A DNA stretch of 64,000 bases from Halostella litorea (lineage in GTDB: Archaea; Halobacteriota; Halobacteria; Halobacteriales; Natronoarchaeaceae). Position 1 is the stretch's first letter, and each line of letters starts with the position of its first letter. The stretch covers positions 372,001 to 436,000 of the forward strand of contig NZ_SJER01000001.1 of the NCBI RefSeq assembly GCF_004785955.1. The letters run 5' to 3'. The notes under the pieces were generated by a model. The model had not been told where the DNA came from and did not search any database. It worked only from the letters and a program-made list of their open reading frames with translations. The position numbers were made by a program, and so were the translations under genes. Below, one piece after another: positions 12,320 through 20,823 of this stretch.

Positions 12320-13726
12320 ATGATGACACTCGCGTTCGACGGCCGGATGGGAGCGAGCGGGGACATGATCCTGGGGGCGCTGGTCGCCGCCGGGGCCGAC
12401 CCCGACGCCCTCGCCCCCGTCGAGGCCGCGCTCCCCGTGCGCTACGAGGTGAGCGAACGGACGAAAAACGGCATCGCGGCGACCGACGTCCGCGTACTGA
12501 CGACCGGCGACGGCGACGATGACGCGAGCCATTCGCACAGCCACGATGAAGACGATCACCACCACCCGGACGGCGACCACTCGCACGACCACGGCGGGGA
12601 CGACCACGACGGTCACCAGCACGACCATGGCCACGACCACGGCGAACACCAGCACGACCACGACCACGGTCACGGGGAACACTCCCACGACCGCGCGGAG
12701 GGGGCCGGCCCGCTCCGCACCTACGAGGAGGTCGTCGGGATCGTCGAGGGGATGGACCTCCCCGAGGGCGTCGAAGCCGACGCCAGAGCCGCCTTCCGGA
12801 TCCTCGGGGAGGCGGAGGCGGCGGTCCACGGGACGGACCTCTCGGGGACGCACTTCCACGAGGTCGGGGCCGACGACGCCATCGCGGACGTGGTCGGCGC
12901 GGCGCTCCTGCTGGACGACCTCGGCGTCGACCGCGTCGTGACCGGGCCGGTCCGGGCGGGCGGCGGCGAGGTGGAGATGAGCCACGGCGTCTACCCGGTC
13001 CCGGCCCCGGCGGTGGTCGAGATAGCCGAGCGGGCCGACTGGGCGCTGCGGGGCGGCCCCGTCGAGGCCGAACTGCTCACGCCGACGGGCGCGGCGGTGC
13101 TCGCGCGGTTCGCCGAGGGCGTCGACGAACTGCCGTCGCTCGACGTGACGGCGGCGGGCTACGGCGCGGGCGGCTACGAGTTCCCGGACCACCCGAACGT
13201 CCTCCGGGCGGTCGTCGGCGAGGAGTCGACGGGGGACTCGACGGCCGACGCCGCCGACCGCGGGTCGCTCGTCCGGGACGACGTGGCGGTCCTGGAGACG
13301 AACGTCGACGACGTGGCCCCGGAGGTGCTGGGGAGCCTGCAGGAGACGCTCGCCGACGCCGGCGCGCGGGACGTGACGATACTGCCGACGACGATGAAGA
13401 AGTCCCGACCGGGCCACCTCGTGAAGGTTATCGCAAAGCCCGAGGACGCGCGAGCGGTCGCGCGCCGCCTCGCCGAGGAGACGGGCACGCTCGGCGTCCG
13501 CGAAGCCGGGGCGAGCCACCGGTGGATCGCCGAGCGGGCGTTTGAGACGGCCGCCGTCACGGTCGACGGCGACGAGTACGACGTCCGCGTGAAAGTCGCC
13601 AGCGACGACGCCGGCACGGTGTACGACAGGAGCGCCGAGTACGACGACGCGCTGGCCGTGGCCCGCGAGACGGGACTCCCCGTCCGCGAGGTGCTAGAGC
13701 GGGCCGAGCGGGCCGTCGACCGGTAG
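12320..13726 (+). CDS. larC: LarC-like nickel insertion protein with large His-rich insert
   Basis: Homologue of LarC, which inserts nickel into the pyridinium dithiocarboxylic acid precursor of the nickel-pincer cofactor of lactate racemase. The 468-residue protein starts with MTLAFDGRMGASGDMILGAL, the family signature, and keeps THFHEVGADDAIAD, SHGVYPVPAPA and LETNVDDVAPE later on. Residues 71-123 form an insert with 22 His among Asp, Glu, Gly and Ser, a probable metal-binding sponge. No LarA (racemase), LarB or LarE is visible in this window, so the client enzyme is elsewhere or different. It is divergent from cdc48 and convergent with the manganese catalase, whose stop codon abuts. Confidence 0.88.
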   Translation: MMTLAFDGRMGASGDMILGALVAAGADPDALAPVEAALPVRYEVSERTKNGIAATDVRVLTTGDGDDDASHSHSHDEDDHHHPDGDHSHDHGGDDHDGHQHDHGHDHGEHQHDHDHGHGEHSHDRAEGAGPLRTYEEVVGIVEGMDLPEGVEADARAAFRILGEAEAAVHGTDLSGTHFHEVGADDAIADVVGAALLLDDLGVDRVVTGPVRAGGGEVEMSHGVYPVPAPAVVEIAERADWALRGGPVEAELLTPTGAAVLARFAEGVDELPSLDVTAAGYGAGGYEFPDHPNVLRAVVGEESTGDSTADAADRGSLVRDDVAVLETNVDDVAPEVLGSLQETLADAGARDVTILPTTMKKSRPGHLVKVIAKPEDARAVARRLAEETGTLGVREAGASHRWIAERAFETAAVTVDGDEYDVRVKVASDDAGTVYDRSAEYDDALAVARETGLPVREVLERAERAVDR

Positions 13727-14548
13727 TTACCCGTCGTCGGTCGGGTGGTTGTTCACGGACTCGTCGGCCATGCCGACCCCCGGCTCGCCGCCGCCGGGCT
13801 GCTCGCTCAGGAAGGAAAACTCCCCTTTCCCGTCGGACGACTCGCCGGAGGTCCACGGCGTCCCGGGGTCCTCGTGTGGATCCCGCGAGGTCGACATGAA
13901 CGAGTAGTTGAACTCGTCGTTTTCCTTCTCCTGCGGGAAGCTCGCGGGCACCGGCAGGTGGTCGTCGAACGTGTCGAGCACTTCGAGCCACTGGTTCTGG
14001 TGCATCGTGTCGCGGGCGATGAGGTACGCCAGCATGTCCTTCATCCCCTCGTCGTCGGTGCGCTCGTACAGCCGGGTCGCGAGCAGGCGACCCGTCGACT
14101 CGGCCATCACGTTCGCGTACATGTCCGCCGCGAGGTTGCCCGACGCGACGATGCAGCCCGCGTCGAACGGGACGCCGTTGCTGTCGACCGGCATCGCCGA
14201 CATCCCCGCCGAGAGCACCTGCCGGGGGCTCTGTCCCGTCATCGCGGCGTCGACGGCGGCGTCCTGCCGCGCCTCCTCGCGGACCTCGCGGGGCGCGCCG
14301 CGGAGGTTCTTCGTCACCGCCGTCGCCAGCATCTCGATGTGGCCGAGTTCCTCGGCCGCCGTCTCCATCAGCATGTGGCGGTACTCGCTCTGTTCCTCGG
14401 GCACCGCCATCGCCTGGAACATGTACTGCAGCGCGACGCGCATCTCCCCCTCGACCCCGCCGATGGCCTGCTGGAGCAGCTTCGCGAACTGCGGGTCCGG
14501 TTCCTCGACCTCGACCTCGTACTGGAGTTCGCCGTTCTGGAAGAACAT
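13727..14548 (-). CDS. Manganese catalase
   Basis: Dimanganese catalase that disproportionates hydrogen peroxide in the cytosol. The 273-residue protein has the ferritin-like four-helix fold with the expected ligand set: E35 (VEGEMR), E67 and H70 (EELGH), E150 (MAEST) and H183 (DTMHQNQW). The N terminus MFFQNGELQYEVEVEEPDP is typical. The C-terminal 60 residues are Ser/Gly/Asp-rich and end in NNHPTDDG. The ATG at 14548 is chosen over a longer in-frame start because it has GGAGGG 5-10 bases upstream (14553-14558 on the plus strand) and a TTTATG box near 14583-14588. It is therefore likely a leadered message. Confidence 0.93.
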   Translation of the reverse strand: MFFQNGELQYEVEVEEPDPQFAKLLQQAIGGVEGEMRVALQYMFQAMAVPEEQSEYRHMLMETAAEELGHIEMLATAVTKNLRGAPREVREEARQDAAVDAAMTGQSPRQVLSAGMSAMPVDSNGVPFDAGCIVASGNLAADMYANVMAESTGRLLATRLYERTDDEGMKDMLAYLIARDTMHQNQWLEVLDTFDDHLPVPASFPQEKENDEFNYSFMSTSRDPHEDPGTPWTSGESSDGKGEFSFLSEQPGGGEPGVGMADESVNNHPTDDG

Positions 14549-14741
14549 CGTTCCCTCCGGCCGTGCTGGCCACGAGCACCGGCATAAACCCCGTGAGGAG
14601 CAGTTGGACGCCACGTCGGAGGTTCACGGAGGTACTCCGACCGTCGTGGCAACCAAGTCATAACCGGTCGGCCCGGGCCGCGGAAAGCATCGGAAAACCG
14701 GGGTCGGTCGCGGACGTTGCGCCCGGCGCGCCCTGCCGCCG

Positions 14742-15482
14742 TCAGCCGTCGCGGTGCTCGTCCAGCGCCTCGTCGATGGTCAGGTCGCCGCTGGCGACCC
14801 GCCGGGCCAGGTCCTCGTCGATGGCGCGGTTCCGCTCGGACCGCTCGCGGGAGCGGTCCTTGATCACCTTCAGTTCGCCCTCGGTCGGCTCTATCTCGCG
14901 CTGGTCGACCGCGTCGCCCTCGATGCGCGCGATGTTCACGGCGGCGAGCACGTCGCCCATGCCCCGGGCCCCGGTGCCGAGATACGGCGTCGTCCCCGTT
15001 TCGTCGACGAGTTCGACGCGCACGTCGTCGAGTTCGTTGACGATCGTGGCCCCCTGCAGGCGCGCACCGTCGCCGACCCGGACGACCGGGTCGGGCGCGT
15101 CGGCCACCTCCTCGCGGACGGTGTCGACCGCGTCCGACAGCGGCACGTGGAACGCCGCGACGACCGTCTCGCCCGCGAGGACGGCGATGCCCGGCCGCGT
15201 GCCCGGGTCGACGCCGACGACGGTCCGCCCGCCCTCGCCGCGGAGGGCGGCCAGCGCCGACTCGACGGCGCGGCGGGCCCCGTCCGGGCTGGCGGTGACG
15301 ACGGTCACGTCGCCCGGGAGTTCCGCCGGCGAGACGGCGTCGTCCTCGCCGGTGACGAGCACGTCGGTCCCCTCGGGGAGCGGGTCGTCCGGTTCGACGG
15401 TCGTGAACGTCACCCCGCGGTCGCGGAGCTCGTTGACCACCCCGTGGTACAGCTCGAAGTCCCCCGTCGCGACGACTATCAC
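14742..15482 (-). CDS. RNase H/RuvC-like fold protein, unknown function
   Basis: A 246-residue protein. The N-terminal part (about 1-85) reads like a small alpha/beta domain. The centre contains VVGVDPGTRPGIAVL (about 90-104), the first-strand signature of RuvC/RNase H-like nucleases and related ATPases. The C-terminal 60 residues are charged and helical (IKDRSRERSERNRAIDED). The start is a GTG at 15482; the upstream in-frame codons are Pro/Arg-rich and unlikely. It is divergent from radB with about 130 bases between, which hints at DNA metabolism but proves nothing. Whether all catalytic acids are present cannot be settled by eye. Confidence 0.6.
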   Translation of the reverse strand: MIVVATGDFELYHGVVNELRDRGVTFTTVEPDDPLPEGTDVLVTGEDDAVSPAELPGDVTVVTASPDGARRAVESALAALRGEGGRTVVGVDPGTRPGIAVLAGETVVAAFHVPLSDAVDTVREEVADAPDPVVRVGDGARLQGATIVNELDDVRVELVDETGTTPYLGTGARGMGDVLAAVNIARIEGDAVDQREIEPTEGELKVIKDRSRERSERNRAIDEDLARRVASGDLTIDEALDEHRDG

Positions 15483-15610
15483 TCCCGGCGGTTCGGTCCC
15501 GCGGCAGTTAAGCGCTTCCGCGGGCCGCGGAGGGGGCCGGCCCACGAAGCCGGGCCGGCGTTCGCACCCGGACCGGGGGCTTTTTGCCCGGAACGCGCCT
15601 ACCTCGCGGC

Positions 15611-16312
15611 GTGAACGACGAGACGCCCGTCCCGACCGGCTGCGGCCCCGTCGACGACCTGCTGGACGGCGGCTTCGAGCGGGGAACCGTCACCCAGGTG
15701 TACGGCCAGCCGGCGGCGGGCAAGACGAACCTCGCGCTCTCGGCGGCGGTGGAGGTGGCGGCCCGCGACGGCCTCGCGGTGTACGTCGACACCGAGGGGC
15801 TGTCGCTCGACCGCTTCGAACAGCTCGCCGCGGCCCGGGCCGGCGACCGGGACGTCGAGGACCTCACCTCGCGGATCGTCGTCGAGACGGCCTACGACTT
15901 CGACGAGCAGGCCGAGGCGGTCCGCGACGCCGGCGAGTTCGCCGACGAGGCGGACCTGATCGTGCTCGACAGCGCCACCGGCTTCTACCGGCTGGAGCGC
16001 ACCGGCGACGGCGACGACGGCGAGGCGCTCCGGGACGTCGCCCGGCAGGTGACCCACCTGCTGTCGCTGGCCCGGCGACACGACCTCGCCGTGGTCGTCA
16101 CGAACCAGGTGTTCACGGACCCCGACAGCGACCGGACGCGGCCGCTGGGCGGGCACACGCTGGAACACTGGACCGGGACCGTCCTCCGGGTCGACCGCTT
16201 CCGCGGCGGGAACCGGCGGGCGACCCTCGAGAAGCACCGCGCGAAGGCGGCCGGCGAGTCCGTCCAGTTCCGGATCGAGGACGCGGGGCTGGTCGCCGCC
16301 GAGGAGCCGTAG
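15611..16312 (+). CDS. radB: DNA repair and recombination protein RadB
   Basis: Archaeal RecA-family paralogue that assists RadA in homologous recombination. The 233-residue protein is the bare ATPase core, as usual for RadB, with Walker A GQPAAGKT (32-39) and a Walker B strand LIVLDSATG. It lacks the N-terminal helix-hairpin-helix domain of RadA. The GTG at 15611 matches the usual RadB start shortly before the PTGCGPVDDLLDGGFE motif. A weak CTTTTTG element about 25-30 bases before the start may be its TATA box. Confidence 0.92.
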   Translation: MNDETPVPTGCGPVDDLLDGGFERGTVTQVYGQPAAGKTNLALSAAVEVAARDGLAVYVDTEGLSLDRFEQLAAARAGDRDVEDLTSRIVVETAYDFDEQAEAVRDAGEFADEADLIVLDSATGFYRLERTGDGDDGEALRDVARQVTHLLSLARRHDLAVVVTNQVFTDPDSDRTRPLGGHTLEHWTGTVLRVDRFRGGNRRATLEKHRAKAAGESVQFRIEDAGLVAAEEP

Positions 16313-16375: not shown

Positions 16376-17536
16376 TTACAGCTCGCCGAGCTTCCGGAGG
16401 AGCTGGCCGCGGTACTCCTCGTCGCTTTGCATCCCCTTCTGTTCGAGGACGTTGCGCTCCAGTTTGTCGAGGGCGACGTGGAACGCCTGCTGTGCGCCGT
16501 ACCCCTCGCCCGTGCCGGCCATCTGGCCGCGGTTGGTCCGCAGCCGGATCTGACAGAGGATGAGCGGGGTGCCCCGGAGCTTCTCCTTGTGCTCGTGGAG
16601 GCGCACGTGGGCGTGGCGGACCTGCATCTCGCTGTACTTGTCCGCGACCTGCTCGATGCTCTCGCGGATGTCCTGCCGCGAGATGGTGTCGAGGAGGTTG
16701 ATGTTGGTGATCTGGACGTCCATGTGCTCCTCCTCGGTGTAGGTCAGCGCGCGGAGCACGTCGGTCTTGGTGAGGACGCCGCCGACGACCCGGTCGTCGT
16801 CCTCCGGCGTGACGACGAGCCCGGAGTAGTCGTTGTCGAGCATCCGCGCGACGGCGTCGCGGACGCTCTCGTCGACCGTCGTCGTCGCGACGGGGCTGGA
16901 CATCACGTCGTAGACCGGGAGGTCGAGCATCCGGTCCGTGTCGCCGGCCCGGTCGCCCTTGCCGGTGATCCGCTGCTCGTTGCGGGTGACGAAGTCGACG
17001 ATGTCGTGGGTCGTCACGACGCCGGAGAGCATGCCGTCGTCGTCGACGACGGGGAGCCGCGAGATCCCGTTTTCCCGCATCAGGTTGATCGCCTTGCCGA
17101 GGCCGTCGTCCTCGGTGACCGTGAACACGTTCTCGCTATAGATCTGTCCGACGTCGAGCGCTTCGAGGTTCTCCAGGACGGCCTCTAGGATCGCGTCCTC
17201 GGTGATGATCCCCCAGAGGTCGCCGCCCTCGAACACCGGGGCGACCTTCGTGCCGCCCTCGACGAGCACGCGGGCGGTCTCGCGGATGTCCTCCGTCCGC
17301 TCGACCTTCGGCGCGGGCGCGTTCCGGCTGGGCTTGACCAGCGCGGCCACCTTCGTGTCGTCCTCCACGTGGGACTGCAGAAGCTGGCGCTCGCCGACGA
17401 CGCCCTCGTACGCCCCGTTTTTGGTGACGATGATCCCTTTCGGGTTCTCCTCCTCGAACACCGACCGTACCTTCCCGAGGCGCGTTCCGGCATCGACCTC
17501 GACGTACTCCCGGGTGGCAATATCAGCAATATCCAT
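16376..17536 (-). CDS. Four-CBS protein with ribosome-hibernation-factor-like C-terminal domain
   Basis: The 386-residue protein has four CBS domains in tandem (about 5-65, 70-128, 131-190 and 205-270), which normally bind adenine nucleotides. The last 110 residues begin with MDVQITNINLLDTISR and contain alternating strands with charged His/Arg, then HVALDKLERNVLEQKG. This is the beta-alpha-beta-beta-beta-alpha pattern of HPF/RaiA ribosome hibernation factors. A role in putting ribosomes to sleep according to energy state is inferred. The ATG at 17536 is preferred; a GTG three codons upstream is possible. It is convergent with radB and divergent from the lycopene-cyclase-like gene. Confidence 0.8.
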   Translation of the reverse strand: MDIADIATREYVEVDAGTRLGKVRSVFEEENPKGIIVTKNGAYEGVVGERQLLQSHVEDDTKVAALVKPSRNAPAPKVERTEDIRETARVLVEGGTKVAPVFEGGDLWGIITEDAILEAVLENLEALDVGQIYSENVFTVTEDDGLGKAINLMRENGISRLPVVDDDGMLSGVVTTHDIVDFVTRNEQRITGKGDRAGDTDRMLDLPVYDVMSSPVATTTVDESVRDAVARMLDNDYSGLVVTPEDDDRVVGGVLTKTDVLRALTYTEEEHMDVQITNINLLDTISRQDIRESIEQVADKYSEMQVRHAHVRLHEHKEKLRGTPLILCQIRLRTNRGQMAGTGEGYGAQQAFHVALDKLERNVLEQKGMQSDEEYRGQLLRKLGEL

Positions 17537-17633
17537 CGTGCTCACACGTGGAACTTCACACCCGACGGCCTTGAAAGTTCACACACCGCTAGCGGCCCGC
17601 ACCACTTAGGGCCGGGCGCACGAACGTCGTGAC

Positions 17634-17945
17634 GTGCTACCGGACATCGGCGTCTTCGGCCCGTACACGTACCTCGTCACGGAGGTCGCCTTCGGGAGCG
17701 TCGCGCTGGCGCTGCTGGTCCGGGCGGACGCCCTCCGGCGCGCCGCCCGGACGGTCGCGGCGCTGTACCCGATCGCGTACGTCTGGGACTGGTACACGCT
17801 CCGCGTCGGGGTGTTCTCGATCGAGCTCCGGACCGGCGTCGACCTCCTCGGGATCCCGGTGGAGGAGCACCTCTTCATGGTGGTCGTCCCGGCGCTGGTC
17901 GTCGGGTTCCACGAGACGGTCAACGGCCCGCCGGAGGGGGAGTAA
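17634..17945 (+). CDS. Single lycopene cyclase-like domain membrane protein
   Basis: A 103-residue membrane protein with three hydrophobic segments (about 12-30, 40-60 and 75-95). It matches one repeat of the CrtYcd-type lycopene beta-cyclase family: a YVWDWY segment with W/D in the middle helix, and GIPVEEHLF, the P-x-E-E motif associated with catalysis. Known haloarchaeal cyclases carry two such repeats fused; here only one is present, so it would have to act as a dimer or has another role. The start is a GTG at 17634. It faces the 950-residue PAS/GAF regulator, tail to tail, 25 bases apart. Confidence 0.72.
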   Translation: MLPDIGVFGPYTYLVTEVAFGSVALALLVRADALRRAARTVAALYPIAYVWDWYTLRVGVFSIELRTGVDLLGIPVEEHLFMVVVPALVVGFHETVNGPPEGE

Positions 17946-17970: not shown

Positions 17971-20823
17971 TTACTCCTCGTCGAACAGCAGCGTGAGCAG
18001 CTTGCGCTGTGCGGCCCGGAGGTGGTTGTTGAACGTGGGCTGGGAGACGCCGAGCGAGTCGGCGATCTCGCTCCCGGTCCGGTCCCGCGGCGTCGAGAAG
18101 AAGCCGCTCAGGTACGCGCTCCGGAGCACCTCGGCCTGCCGGTCGGTGAGCCGCCCGTCGAGTTCCGCACGGAAGCTCGCGCCCGTGCGGACCGACCGGT
18201 CGCGCTCGCGCCGGCGGACGAGTTCGGCGGTCTCGTACCGCGACCGGAACGCCTCGGCGAACTCGCGCACGTCGGCGTCCGTCCCGAGGTCCACGACGAG
18301 GCGGATGTCGCCGTCCGACGCCGTCATCGCCCGGGGGACCCCGCCGTGGTCGAGCACCGTCCGGGTGATGCTGTCCCCGGTCAGGTCCGCCTCGTACAGC
18401 GCGCCGTCCCCGCGCTCGGCGACCAGCGAGAGGTTGGTGATCTCCAGGGCCTCCCGGGCGAACTCCCCGACGCGCTCGGGCGGGGTGCCGGCGACGGTGA
18501 AGAAGAGCCGCCCGTGGTCGTCGTTCGGGACGACGCCCTGGAACTCGAAGCGCCCGTCCTCCTCCTCCAGCGCCCGCGAGAGGGTCAGGTCCGGGTCGTT
18601 GATCCGGAACTCCAGTTCGACGGCCGCGTCGCTGACCAGCGCGTTCTTCGCCTCGACGGCGTTTATCGCGTGGGCGACGGTGTCGCCCAGCTCCGCGAGC
18701 ACCTCCCGTTCGGTCCCGTCGAACACGCCGGGGCGGTCGGTGGCGACGGTCAGGACGCCGTACGTCGACTCGTCGTACCGGAGCGGGATGCCGACGATGG
18801 CGCTGAACCCGCGGGTCAGCGCGGCCTGTCGCCAGCTCTCGAACGGCGGGTCGCTCATCAGGTTCGTCTCGACCTGTAGCTCGCCGCGCCGGAGCGCCCG
18901 GGCGGACGGCGGCAGTTCCGCCACCGGCCCGTCCAGCGGCAGGGGGACGGCGTCGAGATACCCGTCGTCGGACCCGGCGCGCTCCCGCGGCTCGACGCGG
19001 TTCGAGGCGGGGTCGCTGTCGCCGACCCAGGCCAGCGAGTAGGGGGACGCGGCGGCGAGTTCCGAGCAGACGGCCGTCTCGATCTCGGCCCGGGTCGTCG
19101 CGCCCACAAGGGCGCGCTGGACGTTCCGGATCACCTCGTTGATGCGGTTCGTGCGTTCGAGCGCGGCGTTGCGGTCGGCGAGCTCGGCCTCCTGCTCCCG
19201 GAGTTCCCGGTCCCGCTCGGCCCGGTCGAGCGCCGCGCGGAGGGTCGCCGCCAGCAGCGACGCCGTCTCCGTCGTCGAGCGGTCGACGGCTCCCCCGTTC
19301 CTCGTCCCGGCGACGAACACCCCGTGCCGGCCGAGCGGCACGGCCACGCCGTCGGTGAACGGGCTGTCGTCGCCGTCGCGGTACCGCAGCTGCTCGCTCT
19401 CGACGAACGCCGACCAGGCGGTCCCGGAGCCGTCGACCGACCCGCCGTCGTCGACGCCCGCGATCCCCCCGGTGACCGGATCGAGGTGACCGCGGCCGTC
19501 GTACAGCGCGACCGCGGTCTCCGGGAGGCCGAGCACCTCCCCGGCCCGGTCGGTCGCGACCTCGGCCATCTCGACCGCGCTCTCGGCGTCCATCAGCTCC
19601 CGCGCGATCCCGTTGAGCGACCTGAGCCCCGCCTCGCGCCGCCTGCGCTCCGTGACGTCTTCGAGCGTCAACACGACGCGGTCGAGTTCGTCCTCCGGAT
19701 CGTACAACTGCGTCCCGTTGACCGACAGCCAGACGCGGTCGCCGTCGGGGCGGGCGACGCCGATCACCTGGTCGACGAACTGCTCCTCGGCGTCGACCGC
19801 GCGCCGGAACGGGAGCCGGTCGTCCGGCAGCGGCTCGCCGTCGGGGCCGACGATGTCCCACTCCTCGGCGTTGTACCGGAGTTCGCGGATCGTATCGCGG
19901 GACCGCCCGAGCAGTTCCTCGGCGTACTCGTTGGCGAACTGGAACCGTCCCCCCGAGTCCAGCACCGTGATGCCGACCGGGCTCGTCTCGACGATCCGCC
20001 GCTTGAGCGCGCGCTCCTCGCGGAGCTCCGCCTTCAATCGCTCGCGCTCGGTCACGTCGCGGAAGTACACCGACAGGCCCGTCGGCGAGGGGTAGGCGTG
20101 GACCTCGAACCAGGCCGACAGCGGCGGGAAGTACTCGGTGAAGCTGACGGTCCGCTGTTCGGCCGCCGCCTCGCGGTACTTCTCCTCGAACGTCGTCCCG
20201 ACGGCGTCCGGGAACGCCTCCCAGATCGACCTGTCGATGAGCTCCCCCGCGGACCGCCCCAGCACAGTCTCTGCGCGGTCGTTGACGTACGTGAACCGCC
20301 AGTCCCCGTCGAGCGCGAAGAACGCGTCGGTGACGCGGCCAAGCACCGCCCGGGCCGTCGGCGAGACGGGGTCGGCCCCGTCCCCCGCCTCCGACGCCGC
20401 GCGTTCCCCCGACGAGACCGCCCGGAACCCCCGGACGCTGGCGGCGAGCGCGACGAACTGGCCGTCGCCGTCCCGGGCGACGTAGTCCGTCGCCGGGTAG
20501 TCGTACAGCACCCGGAGCGTCGACGCCCCGGGGCGCTCCGCGAACAGGACGAACGGGACCGCCGACACCTCGCGGAGCCGGTCGAGCAGTTCGGTGGCGG
20601 TGCCGTCGGGCAGGTCCGGCTCGCTCACCACGCAGTCGACGCCGCCGCCCTCAACGCGTGTGACCGCCGCGTCGACGCCGACGCTCGGCTCCGCGCGGAG
20701 GCCGGCGAGTTCCGACTCGACCCGCGCGGCCGCCGTCTCGGTCCCCCCCGGATCGGCCCCCACGTAGAGAAGCGTCGCCGAGTCGCTCGTCGTCGATCGG
20801 TTCACGTCCGTGATCGCCGGCAC
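17971..20823 (-). CDS. Multi-domain PAS/GAF transcription regulator of the bacterioopsin-activator type
   Basis: A 950-residue soluble sensor-regulator. Domains in order: receiver-like (about 15-135), PAS (about 155-265), PAS (about 280-395), GAF (about 400-540), a short coiled segment, GAF (about 575-720), a bacterioopsin-activator-associated GAF/PAS domain (about 735-885) and a C-terminal HTH_10 helix-turn-helix (about 890-945; LTDRQAEVLRSAYLSGFF, then SEIADSLGVSQPTFNNHL). In the receiver, the usual phospho-acceptor Asp is replaced by Glu (E68 in VVSEPDLPDG). Signals could be redox, light or small molecules. The start is a GTG at 20823, with no better ATG nearby. Targets are unknown. Confidence 0.85.
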   Translation of the reverse strand: MPAITDVNRSTTSDSATLLYVGADPGGTETAAARVESELAGLRAEPSVGVDAAVTRVEGGGVDCVVSEPDLPDGTATELLDRLREVSAVPFVLFAERPGASTLRVLYDYPATDYVARDGDGQFVALAASVRGFRAVSSGERAASEAGDGADPVSPTARAVLGRVTDAFFALDGDWRFTYVNDRAETVLGRSAGELIDRSIWEAFPDAVGTTFEEKYREAAAEQRTVSFTEYFPPLSAWFEVHAYPSPTGLSVYFRDVTERERLKAELREERALKRRIVETSPVGITVLDSGGRFQFANEYAEELLGRSRDTIRELRYNAEEWDIVGPDGEPLPDDRLPFRRAVDAEEQFVDQVIGVARPDGDRVWLSVNGTQLYDPEDELDRVVLTLEDVTERRRREAGLRSLNGIARELMDAESAVEMAEVATDRAGEVLGLPETAVALYDGRGHLDPVTGGIAGVDDGGSVDGSGTAWSAFVESEQLRYRDGDDSPFTDGVAVPLGRHGVFVAGTRNGGAVDRSTTETASLLAATLRAALDRAERDRELREQEAELADRNAALERTNRINEVIRNVQRALVGATTRAEIETAVCSELAAASPYSLAWVGDSDPASNRVEPRERAGSDDGYLDAVPLPLDGPVAELPPSARALRRGELQVETNLMSDPPFESWRQAALTRGFSAIVGIPLRYDESTYGVLTVATDRPGVFDGTEREVLAELGDTVAHAINAVEAKNALVSDAAVELEFRINDPDLTLSRALEEEDGRFEFQGVVPNDDHGRLFFTVAGTPPERVGEFAREALEITNLSLVAERGDGALYEADLTGDSITRTVLDHGGVPRAMTASDGDIRLVVDLGTDADVREFAEAFRSRYETAELVRRRERDRSVRTGASFRAELDGRLTDRQAEVLRSAYLSGFFSTPRDRTGSEIADSLGVSQPTFNNHLRAAQRKLLTLLFDEE

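Follow-up and report, generated by a model that had tools for sequence, protein, structure and literature searches.

The 64,000-nucleotide stretch of the Halostella litorea genome analysed here (the window; contig NZ_SJER01000001.1, positions 372,001 to 436,000 of the forward strand) encodes on its minus strand a 386-residue protein in which four CBS domains precede a tail of the fold found in the ribosome hibernation proteins HPF and RaiA. We identify the gene as the chromosomal hibA of haloarchaea, here termed HibA1, whose product very likely acts in ribosome hibernation. The features on which this argument rests are listed below, with residue numbers referring to the window protein and PTC denoting the peptidyl transferase centre.

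16376..17536, minus strand: hibA (HibA1), ATG start at 17536 and stop codon at 16376–16378, from the open reading frame, the conserved start and phmmer.
16733..17536, minus strand: CBS module, four tandem CBS domains (residues 1–268), from Pfam and model matches.
17003..17014, minus strand: TxxD motif of CBS3 (T175–D178), both residues present in 82/82 HibA1 rows and in Pyrococcus abyssi.
16922..16978, minus strand: PTC-loop equivalent in CBS3 (residues 187–205), aligned with P. abyssi residues 190–207.
16760..16771, minus strand: TxxD motif of CBS4 (T256–D259), both residues present in 82/82 HibA1 rows and in P. abyssi.
16439..16723, minus strand: HPF/RaiA-like domain (residues 272–366), from the secondary structure of the full model and the match of the tail model.
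16562..16597, minus strand: conserved hairpin H-E-H-K317-E-K319-L-R-G-T-P-L (residues 314–325), from numbering in orthologues and published acetylation.
15584..16312, plus strand: radB (NCBIfam NF006861, 420.9 bits against a cut-off of 278), convergent with hibA and 63 bp from its stop.

The hibA gene spans 16376–17536 and encodes 386 amino acids; the open reading frame listing of the window has it start at a GTG at 17545, 9 nt upstream, to give 389 amino acids. The ATG at 17536, and with it the coordinates given in an initial annotation made from the sequence alone, is right because the haloarchaeal relatives in our alignment begin at that residue (MDIADI or close variants); the minus strand is assigned here. 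The genome of H. litorea holds one full-length copy, five other matches being partial and confined to the CBS part, and the nearest named relative is the protein of Halostella pelagica (89% identity). A scan for bacterial-type promoters and terminators, which is unsuited to an archaeon, returned none of either. Carriage of the gene by viruses was also considered and set aside: the viral_contigs set gave 13 pattern matches, none confirmed, in a scan limited to close relatives, and the phages set held no relative at E ≤ 1e-5.

Pfam recognised four CBS stretches in the protein, with a whole-protein E of 2.9e-40. In a full-length AlphaFold2 model built from 33 sequences (mean predicted local distance difference test score, pLDDT, 77), residues 1–268 match known four-CBS modules, namely MJ1225 (Z 25.3), a SriD chain (Z 24.5), AMPK gamma (Z 22.1) and Dri (Z 22.0). 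The four CBS domains read from the sequence by the initial annotation are thus borne out. NCBIfam gave CBS-driven matches alone, far below their cut-offs, in the 25 of 29 listed. The PTC-loop stretch is poorly modelled, with pLDDT below 50 at residues 188–200.

Since CBS proteins filled the whole-model Foldseek matches listed (the best 50 rows were all of this kind), the tail was modelled separately. Its top match in VIA-align 2 is E. coli HPF in the hibernating 100S ribosome (6h4n_x; Z 12.4, root-mean-square deviation 2.2, 93 residues). The structures at Foldseek ranks 1–24 and VIA-align 2 ranks 1–31 either carry titles of HPF/YfiA/pY-type proteins or are ribosome chains that we take to be such proteins, a few of these entries having titles that do not name the matched chain; the best unrelated match is a double-stranded-RNA-binding domain with Z 8.0. 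Secondary structure assigned by DSSP to the tail in the full model runs E273–277, H287–300, E306–320, E323–334, E337–346 and H348–366. The comparison with HPF that the initial annotation had proposed as a check, a fold unlike HPF counting against it, therefore returned an HPF-like fold, and its assignment of an HPF/RaiA domain to the C-terminus, made by pattern, holds. In a profile search against the RaiA family, residues 288–368 of the whole protein match Ribosomal_S30AE (PF02482) with 18.9 bits and the tail scanned alone with 21.5 bits, both under the Pfam cut-off of 23.7, and in the tail alignment 31/32 haloarchaeal tails match the family at E ≤ 0.1 (best 2.9e-6). The tail carries a net charge of −2 over 118 amino acids, compared with −25 over 268 for the CBS module; a near-neutral tail beside an acidic module is as would be expected if, in this halophile, the tail faces RNA.

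Sequence comparison places the protein in a family that has already been published. Among PDB sequences the two best matches are 9l96_a (E 1.3e-67) and the P. abyssi HibA chain 9sr9_H, with which phmmer aligns the window protein over residues 3–383 of 386 (E 3e-49); a profile of the tail alone finds the same chain 9sr9_H at E 9.4e-12, so that homology to HibA is far beyond chance. The sequence alignment with P. abyssi HibA also covers both archaeal-specific insertion stretches of the HPF domain. No 9sr or 9l entry occurs among the structural matches listed for the full or the tail model.

Statements taken from papers cited by PMC number refer to selected passages of each. Entry 9SR9 is the HibA–ATP structure published by Madru et al. 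in April 2026 (Nat Commun; PMC13324472), who define HibA by the fusion of a four-CBS module with an HPF/RaiA domain and report it in 47% of archaeal genomes. In their P. abyssi structures the tail lies within the mRNA/tRNA channel of the small (30S) subunit, and on the large (50S) subunit the CBS module is found in three positions; the abundant protein inhibits translation in vitro, and deletion of hibA in Thermococcus barophilus lowered stationary-phase 70S ribosomes by about 60% and lengthened the lag (PMC13324472). The Haloferax volcanii protein HVO_2384 had been described in October 2025 as a tandem CBS protein with a ribosome-hibernation domain (PMC12607858). With both in print, the window gene, a haloarchaeal chromosomal HibA, is a new member of a known family only.

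The reading we prefer, to which we assign a probability of about 0.88, is that the window gene encodes the haloarchaeal chromosomal HibA1 and that this protein is a ribosome hibernation factor. By homology with the characterised members, the HPF/RaiA domain would dock at the decoding centre, inside the mRNA/tRNA channel of the 30S, and the four-CBS module would swing into the vacant 50S tRNA sites at the PTC, uL5 and the L1 stalk; docked HibA1 would hold the idle 70S ribosome together, block translation and shield the ribosome from decay until growth resumes. Fold and family membership were computed here; docking, inhibition and protection are published results from P. abyssi and T. barophilus that would carry over to the window protein. 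Support comes from the full-length homology, the tail fold and its near-neutral charge, the closeness of the CBS module to modules such as those of the Sri proteins and Dri, which are ribosome-bound by entry title, the retained PTC-loop region and CBS3/CBS4 motifs, and the near-universality of HibA1 described below. The part that the initial annotation proposed for the protein in parking ribosomes is accordingly supported by fold, by homology to P. abyssi HibA and by the published function of the family.

Several points weigh against this assignment. Neither the whole protein nor its tail reaches the Pfam gathering cut-off for S30AE, identity to P. abyssi HibA is 31% overall and 28% in the tail, and the PTC-loop region differs in sequence from that of P. 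abyssi. The PDB's haloarchaeal HibA (9l96) belongs to an accessory class, set out below, and not to HibA1; our literature search found no ribosome-binding experiment for any haloarchaeal HibA1; and the T. barophilus deletion had little effect on long-term viability (PMC13324472).

The initial annotation went further and suggested a hibernation factor gated directly by nucleotides. TxxD, which we take to be a nucleotide-site motif of CBS domains, is lacking as a pair from CBS1 and CBS2 of the window protein. The CBS3 and CBS4 motifs are invariant in the 82 HibA1 rows, which favours a gate in which AMP (adenosine monophosphate) at CBS3/CBS4 drives docking and ATP (the triphosphate) releases the protein. 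P. abyssi HibA has one adenylate site, between CBS3 and CBS4, and HibA-CM prefers AMP (dissociation constant 12 µM) over ADP, the diphosphate (65 µM), and ATP (113 µM) (PMC13324472). From the likeness to this site in P. abyssi, the corresponding site in the window protein is probably real, and its TxxD motifs would be used in the same way. AMP left the ribosome classes of P. abyssi HibA and their distribution unchanged, ATP brought small changes including one extra, weakly populated uL5 state that speaks for such a gate, and the native hibernating complexes carried no nucleotide (PMC13324472). Because direct gating was sought in the founding member of the family and not seen, nucleotides probably do not gate docking directly, and we regard a gate of that kind in the window protein as unlikely; this part of the original proposal finds no support. 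The P. abyssi experiments were run at equilibrium and without competition from tRNA or mRNA, and a gate acting through release, or through a sequestering partner, may be compatible with them.

We searched with the window protein through 391 Halobacteria genomes, an even sample of a larger group. At E ≤ 1e-15 a match was present in 390/391; the exception (G135) shows partial CBS matches alone, even at E ≤ 0.01, and one genome counted among the 390 (G133) has an accessory copy only. These two genomes, both without HibA1, are 96% (G135) and 98% (G133) complete. With the second copy of genome G001, of the class we call HibA2, as query, 140/391 genomes match at E ≤ 1e-60. Five genomes (G029, G220, G223, G287 and G382; tables read by eye) show a single match to the window query, probably their sole copy, and once these and G133 are removed HibA1 and an accessory copy occur together in 134/391 genomes.

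A tree separates 82 HibA1 rows (support 99) from 50 accessory rows (support 97) as sister groups within Halobacteria; it is a quick tree with long branches, in which the placement of P. abyssi, L171 and L137 (from G029, and counted among the 50) is unsure. Before the tree alignment, loci L002–L006, L015, L016, L026, L033, L035, L037, L038, L041, L053 and L055–L073, products under 330 amino acids and five duplicates (144 rows reduced to 139) were dropped, and alignments A1 and A2 took 32 and 31 of 41 HibA-like loci. The window protein finds 41 plasmid records at E ≤ 1e-20, and for 40 of these the identity is under 60%. The universal copy is thus near-universal, and the accessory copies, often borne on megaplasmids, are patchy in distribution. 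Two HibA classes are not mentioned in the passages of PMC13324472 covered here, including its places on paralogs, duplication and plasmids.

One accessory protein can be tied to a structure: 9l96_a matches the Haloferax mediterranei protein encoded on plasmid pHME505 over 96.9% of 383 query letters, 12 of them being X, and every determined residue fits. Judging by the chain name, 9l96, 9l98, 9l9c and 9l9v would be ribosome complexes, and our literature search found no paper naming these entries. H. mediterranei carries a second accessory copy on pHME132 (L172 and L173 are the two plasmid loci). As separate observations, the pHME505 hibA adjoins a universal stress protein gene, and in genome G055 a single contig carries a HibA1 gene with a HibA2 gene next to it (L100, 308–2715).

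This structural match raises the alternative that the accessory copies (HibA2 and HibA3) are the ribosome plug used in times of stress and that HibA1 has turned to a housekeeping or regulatory role. The PDB chain fits the pHME505 copy and not HibA1; in the accessory sequences shown the PTC-loop region exceeds that of HibA1 by about 20 residues and the C-terminal end is different; and a universal-stress-protein match lies within 1.5 kb at 12/30 HibA2 loci (8 of the 12 spanning at least 100 amino acids, and one being the query's own locus) compared with 0/70 HibA1 loci. All the same, HibA1 is near-universal and keeps both the HPF fold and the hairpin motif, whereas 251/391 genomes have no HibA2-class match at the threshold given above, and we hold such a division of labour to be very unlikely.

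The two classes differ in their pairing with radB. Within flanks of 1.5 kb, radB is the convergent 3' neighbour of hibA1 in 57/70 loci, a set that includes the window's own locus, its near relatives and the unsure L165. Counted by eye for each family, the pairing holds in 9/9 loci of f1, 7/10 of f2, 16/19 of f4 and 25/25 of f5 (15 of them from one genus), and in none of seven from f3, f6, f7 and f10. No radB match was found at 30 HibA2 loci, at four plasmid loci or, again with 1.5 kb flanks, at the six loci outside Halobacteria. In 40 named haloarchaeal loci, whose flanks were longer and sometimes incomplete, radB matched in 14, convergently in 13. For G022 a genome scan at E ≤ 1e-50 lists no radB, and tblastn finds one beside hibA (L164; E 8e-90, no internal stop). 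On the opposite side, the neighbour with a lycopene-cyclase domain is kept in 37/70 HibA1 loci.

A link between HibA and RadB was proposed long before the family was named. P. abyssi HibA (Pab0961) belongs to a high-confidence set with RadB and the Sir2-family deacylase Pab0801, and interaction of Hvo_2384 with RadA and RadB in vivo is given there as a personal communication; the authors thought that the CBS protein had no further domain (PMC3820547). In H. volcanii RadB is HVO_2383 (PMC7776575), and RadB and HibA (HVO_2384) therefore bear consecutive locus numbers. The HibA paper itself mentions that pull-downs connect the protein with DNA recombination and with the initiation of replication, and it proposes that a partner sequesters HibA (PMC13324472). 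To this the gene pairing adds independent and class-specific, if on its own weak, support from genome sequence, weak because convergent genes do not share a transcript and gene order is well kept among haloarchaea.

Taken at their strongest, these observations would make HibA1 mainly, or equally, a recombination partner that binds RadB and RadA, with hibernation as one of two jobs, or would have RadB sequester HibA1 away from ribosomes in growing cells. The 57/70 pairing against none at the HibA2 loci, the P. abyssi and Haloferax associations, the position of HVO_2383 and the published pull-down links all argue for it. Against it stand the lack of co-transcription together with high synteny, as illustrated by the other side of the gene, the failure of the pairing in the f3, f6, f7 and f10 samples and outside Halobacteria, and the abundance of HibA, so that co-purification may amount to contamination; in addition, the main text of the paper on RadB pull-downs in H. 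volcanii (PMC5480776) contains neither CBS nor HVO_238. We consider it possible, if rather doubtful, and continue to read HibA1 as a hibernation factor.

A second potential means of control lies in the tail itself. HVO_2384 is reported to be acetylated at K311 and K313 and to co-purify with Pat2 Y154A (PMC12607858). These positions are the two lysines of HEHKEKLRGTP in 15/15 orthologues of genus g22, each 380 amino acids long, one of which (L190) has a mass of 42,520 and a pI of 4.87, compared with 42,521 and 4.87 published for HVO_2384; by alignment they correspond to K317 and K319 of the window protein. In P. abyssi the beta14–beta15 hairpin contacts uS12 and helps to order bases of the decoding centre (PMC13324472). 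Because strands two and three of the tail span residues 306–320 and 323–334 in the full model, we take the K317/K319 hairpin to be the counterpart of this element. H316, E318, R321 and G322 are each present in 82/82 HibA1 and 49/49 accessory rows; position 317 is lysine in 56/82 HibA1 and 12/49 accessory rows, and position 319 in 71/82 and 22/49.

Acetylation at K317/K319 could weaken docking. Counting against control of this kind, position 317 is asparagine or glutamine in 20/82 HibA1 rows and asparagine in P. abyssi, deletion of both archaeal insertions left in vitro inhibition by P. abyssi HibA unchanged (PMC13324472), and HVO_2384 bound to inactive Pat2, wild-type Pat2 failing to acetylate it in vitro (PMC12607858). 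In the passages of PMC13324472 covered, Sir2, RadB and Pat2 are unmentioned and the occurrences of acetyl located are not about HibA regulation, and the acetylome study of H. volcanii under oxidative stress does not name HVO_2384 in its main text (PMC10294847). That HibA1 is controlled by RadB/RadA as a partner, or through acetylated lysines in the decoding-centre hairpin, is only possible. Improbable, in our estimation, is a model that joins the two and makes HibA1 a junction of hibernation and recombination switched by acetylation and not by AMP: RadB would hold part of the pool, acetylation of K317/K319, added by Pat2 and removed by a Sir2-type enzyme, would set ribosome docking, and HibA2/HibA3, which lack the radB pairing, would be stress-only copies outside this control. 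If true, HibA1 would couple the shutdown of translation to DNA repair and to the carbon and acetyl-CoA status of the cell.

The domain guess made from raw sequence was thus right for a family described only months earlier; what is new here is the distinction between near-universal and accessory HibA classes, the radB pairing and the mapping of the acetylated lysines onto the hairpin. How HibA is controlled, whether by nucleotides, a sequestering partner or acetylation, was left open by the HibA paper, and haloarchaea are genetically easy. Together with the P. abyssi pull-down and the Haloferax personal communication, the radB pairing makes a decade-old link between a CBS protein and recombination testable, and the megaplasmid copies suggest that hibernation factors belong to the accessory genome.

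Further genes surround hibA and radB in the window:

12320–13726, plus strand: larC gene (LarC1 and LarC2 families), with a long His/Asp-rich, probably metal-binding stretch in the N-terminal third.
13727–14614, minus strand: manganese catalase (PF05067, 244 bits), two genes beyond radB.
14742–15545, minus strand: 267-amino-acid protein without an NCBIfam or Pfam family at E ≤ 1e-5.
17634–17945: lycopene-cyclase-domain gene, adjoining the following regulator gene.
17971–20823, minus strand: 950-amino-acid PAS/GAF/BAT/HTH_10 regulator of bacterio-opsin-activator type.

The 267-amino-acid protein recurs in the flanks of 16/41 hibA loci, at some of these a long way from the hibA gene.

Compared with P. 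abyssi HibA (Pab0961; PDB 9sr9 and seven further entries), the window protein has in common the four CBS domains with a C-terminal HPF/RaiA domain, the position of the PTC loop, the CBS3/CBS4 TxxD motifs and the E-x-x-R-G of the hairpin; it differs in its acidic CBS module and at H316 and K317, which are F and N in P. abyssi, and its gene is convergent with radB whereas Pab0961 is reported near GINS23. Closer is HVO_2384: the g22 orthologue that agrees with it in mass and pI shares 68% identity with the window protein, the HVO_2384 orthologues having 380 amino acids compared with 386. The CBS protein of H. mediterranei pHME505 (E6P09_RS15450; 9l96_a, 9l98, 9l9c, 9l9v) has the same architecture at 39% identity, and differs as a member of the HibA2 accessory class with a longer PTC-loop region and another C-terminal end. 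Bacterial HPF, RaiA and YfiA share the tail fold (Z 12.4) and, unlike HibA1, have no CBS module. Dri of Pyrobaculum and SriA–D of Methanosarcina are, per their entry titles, CBS modules on ribosomes and are among the nearest to the window's CBS module, with no HPF/RaiA domain mentioned in the passages and titles covered; Dri consists of two fused CBS modules, whereas the window protein combines one four-CBS module with an HPF-type domain.
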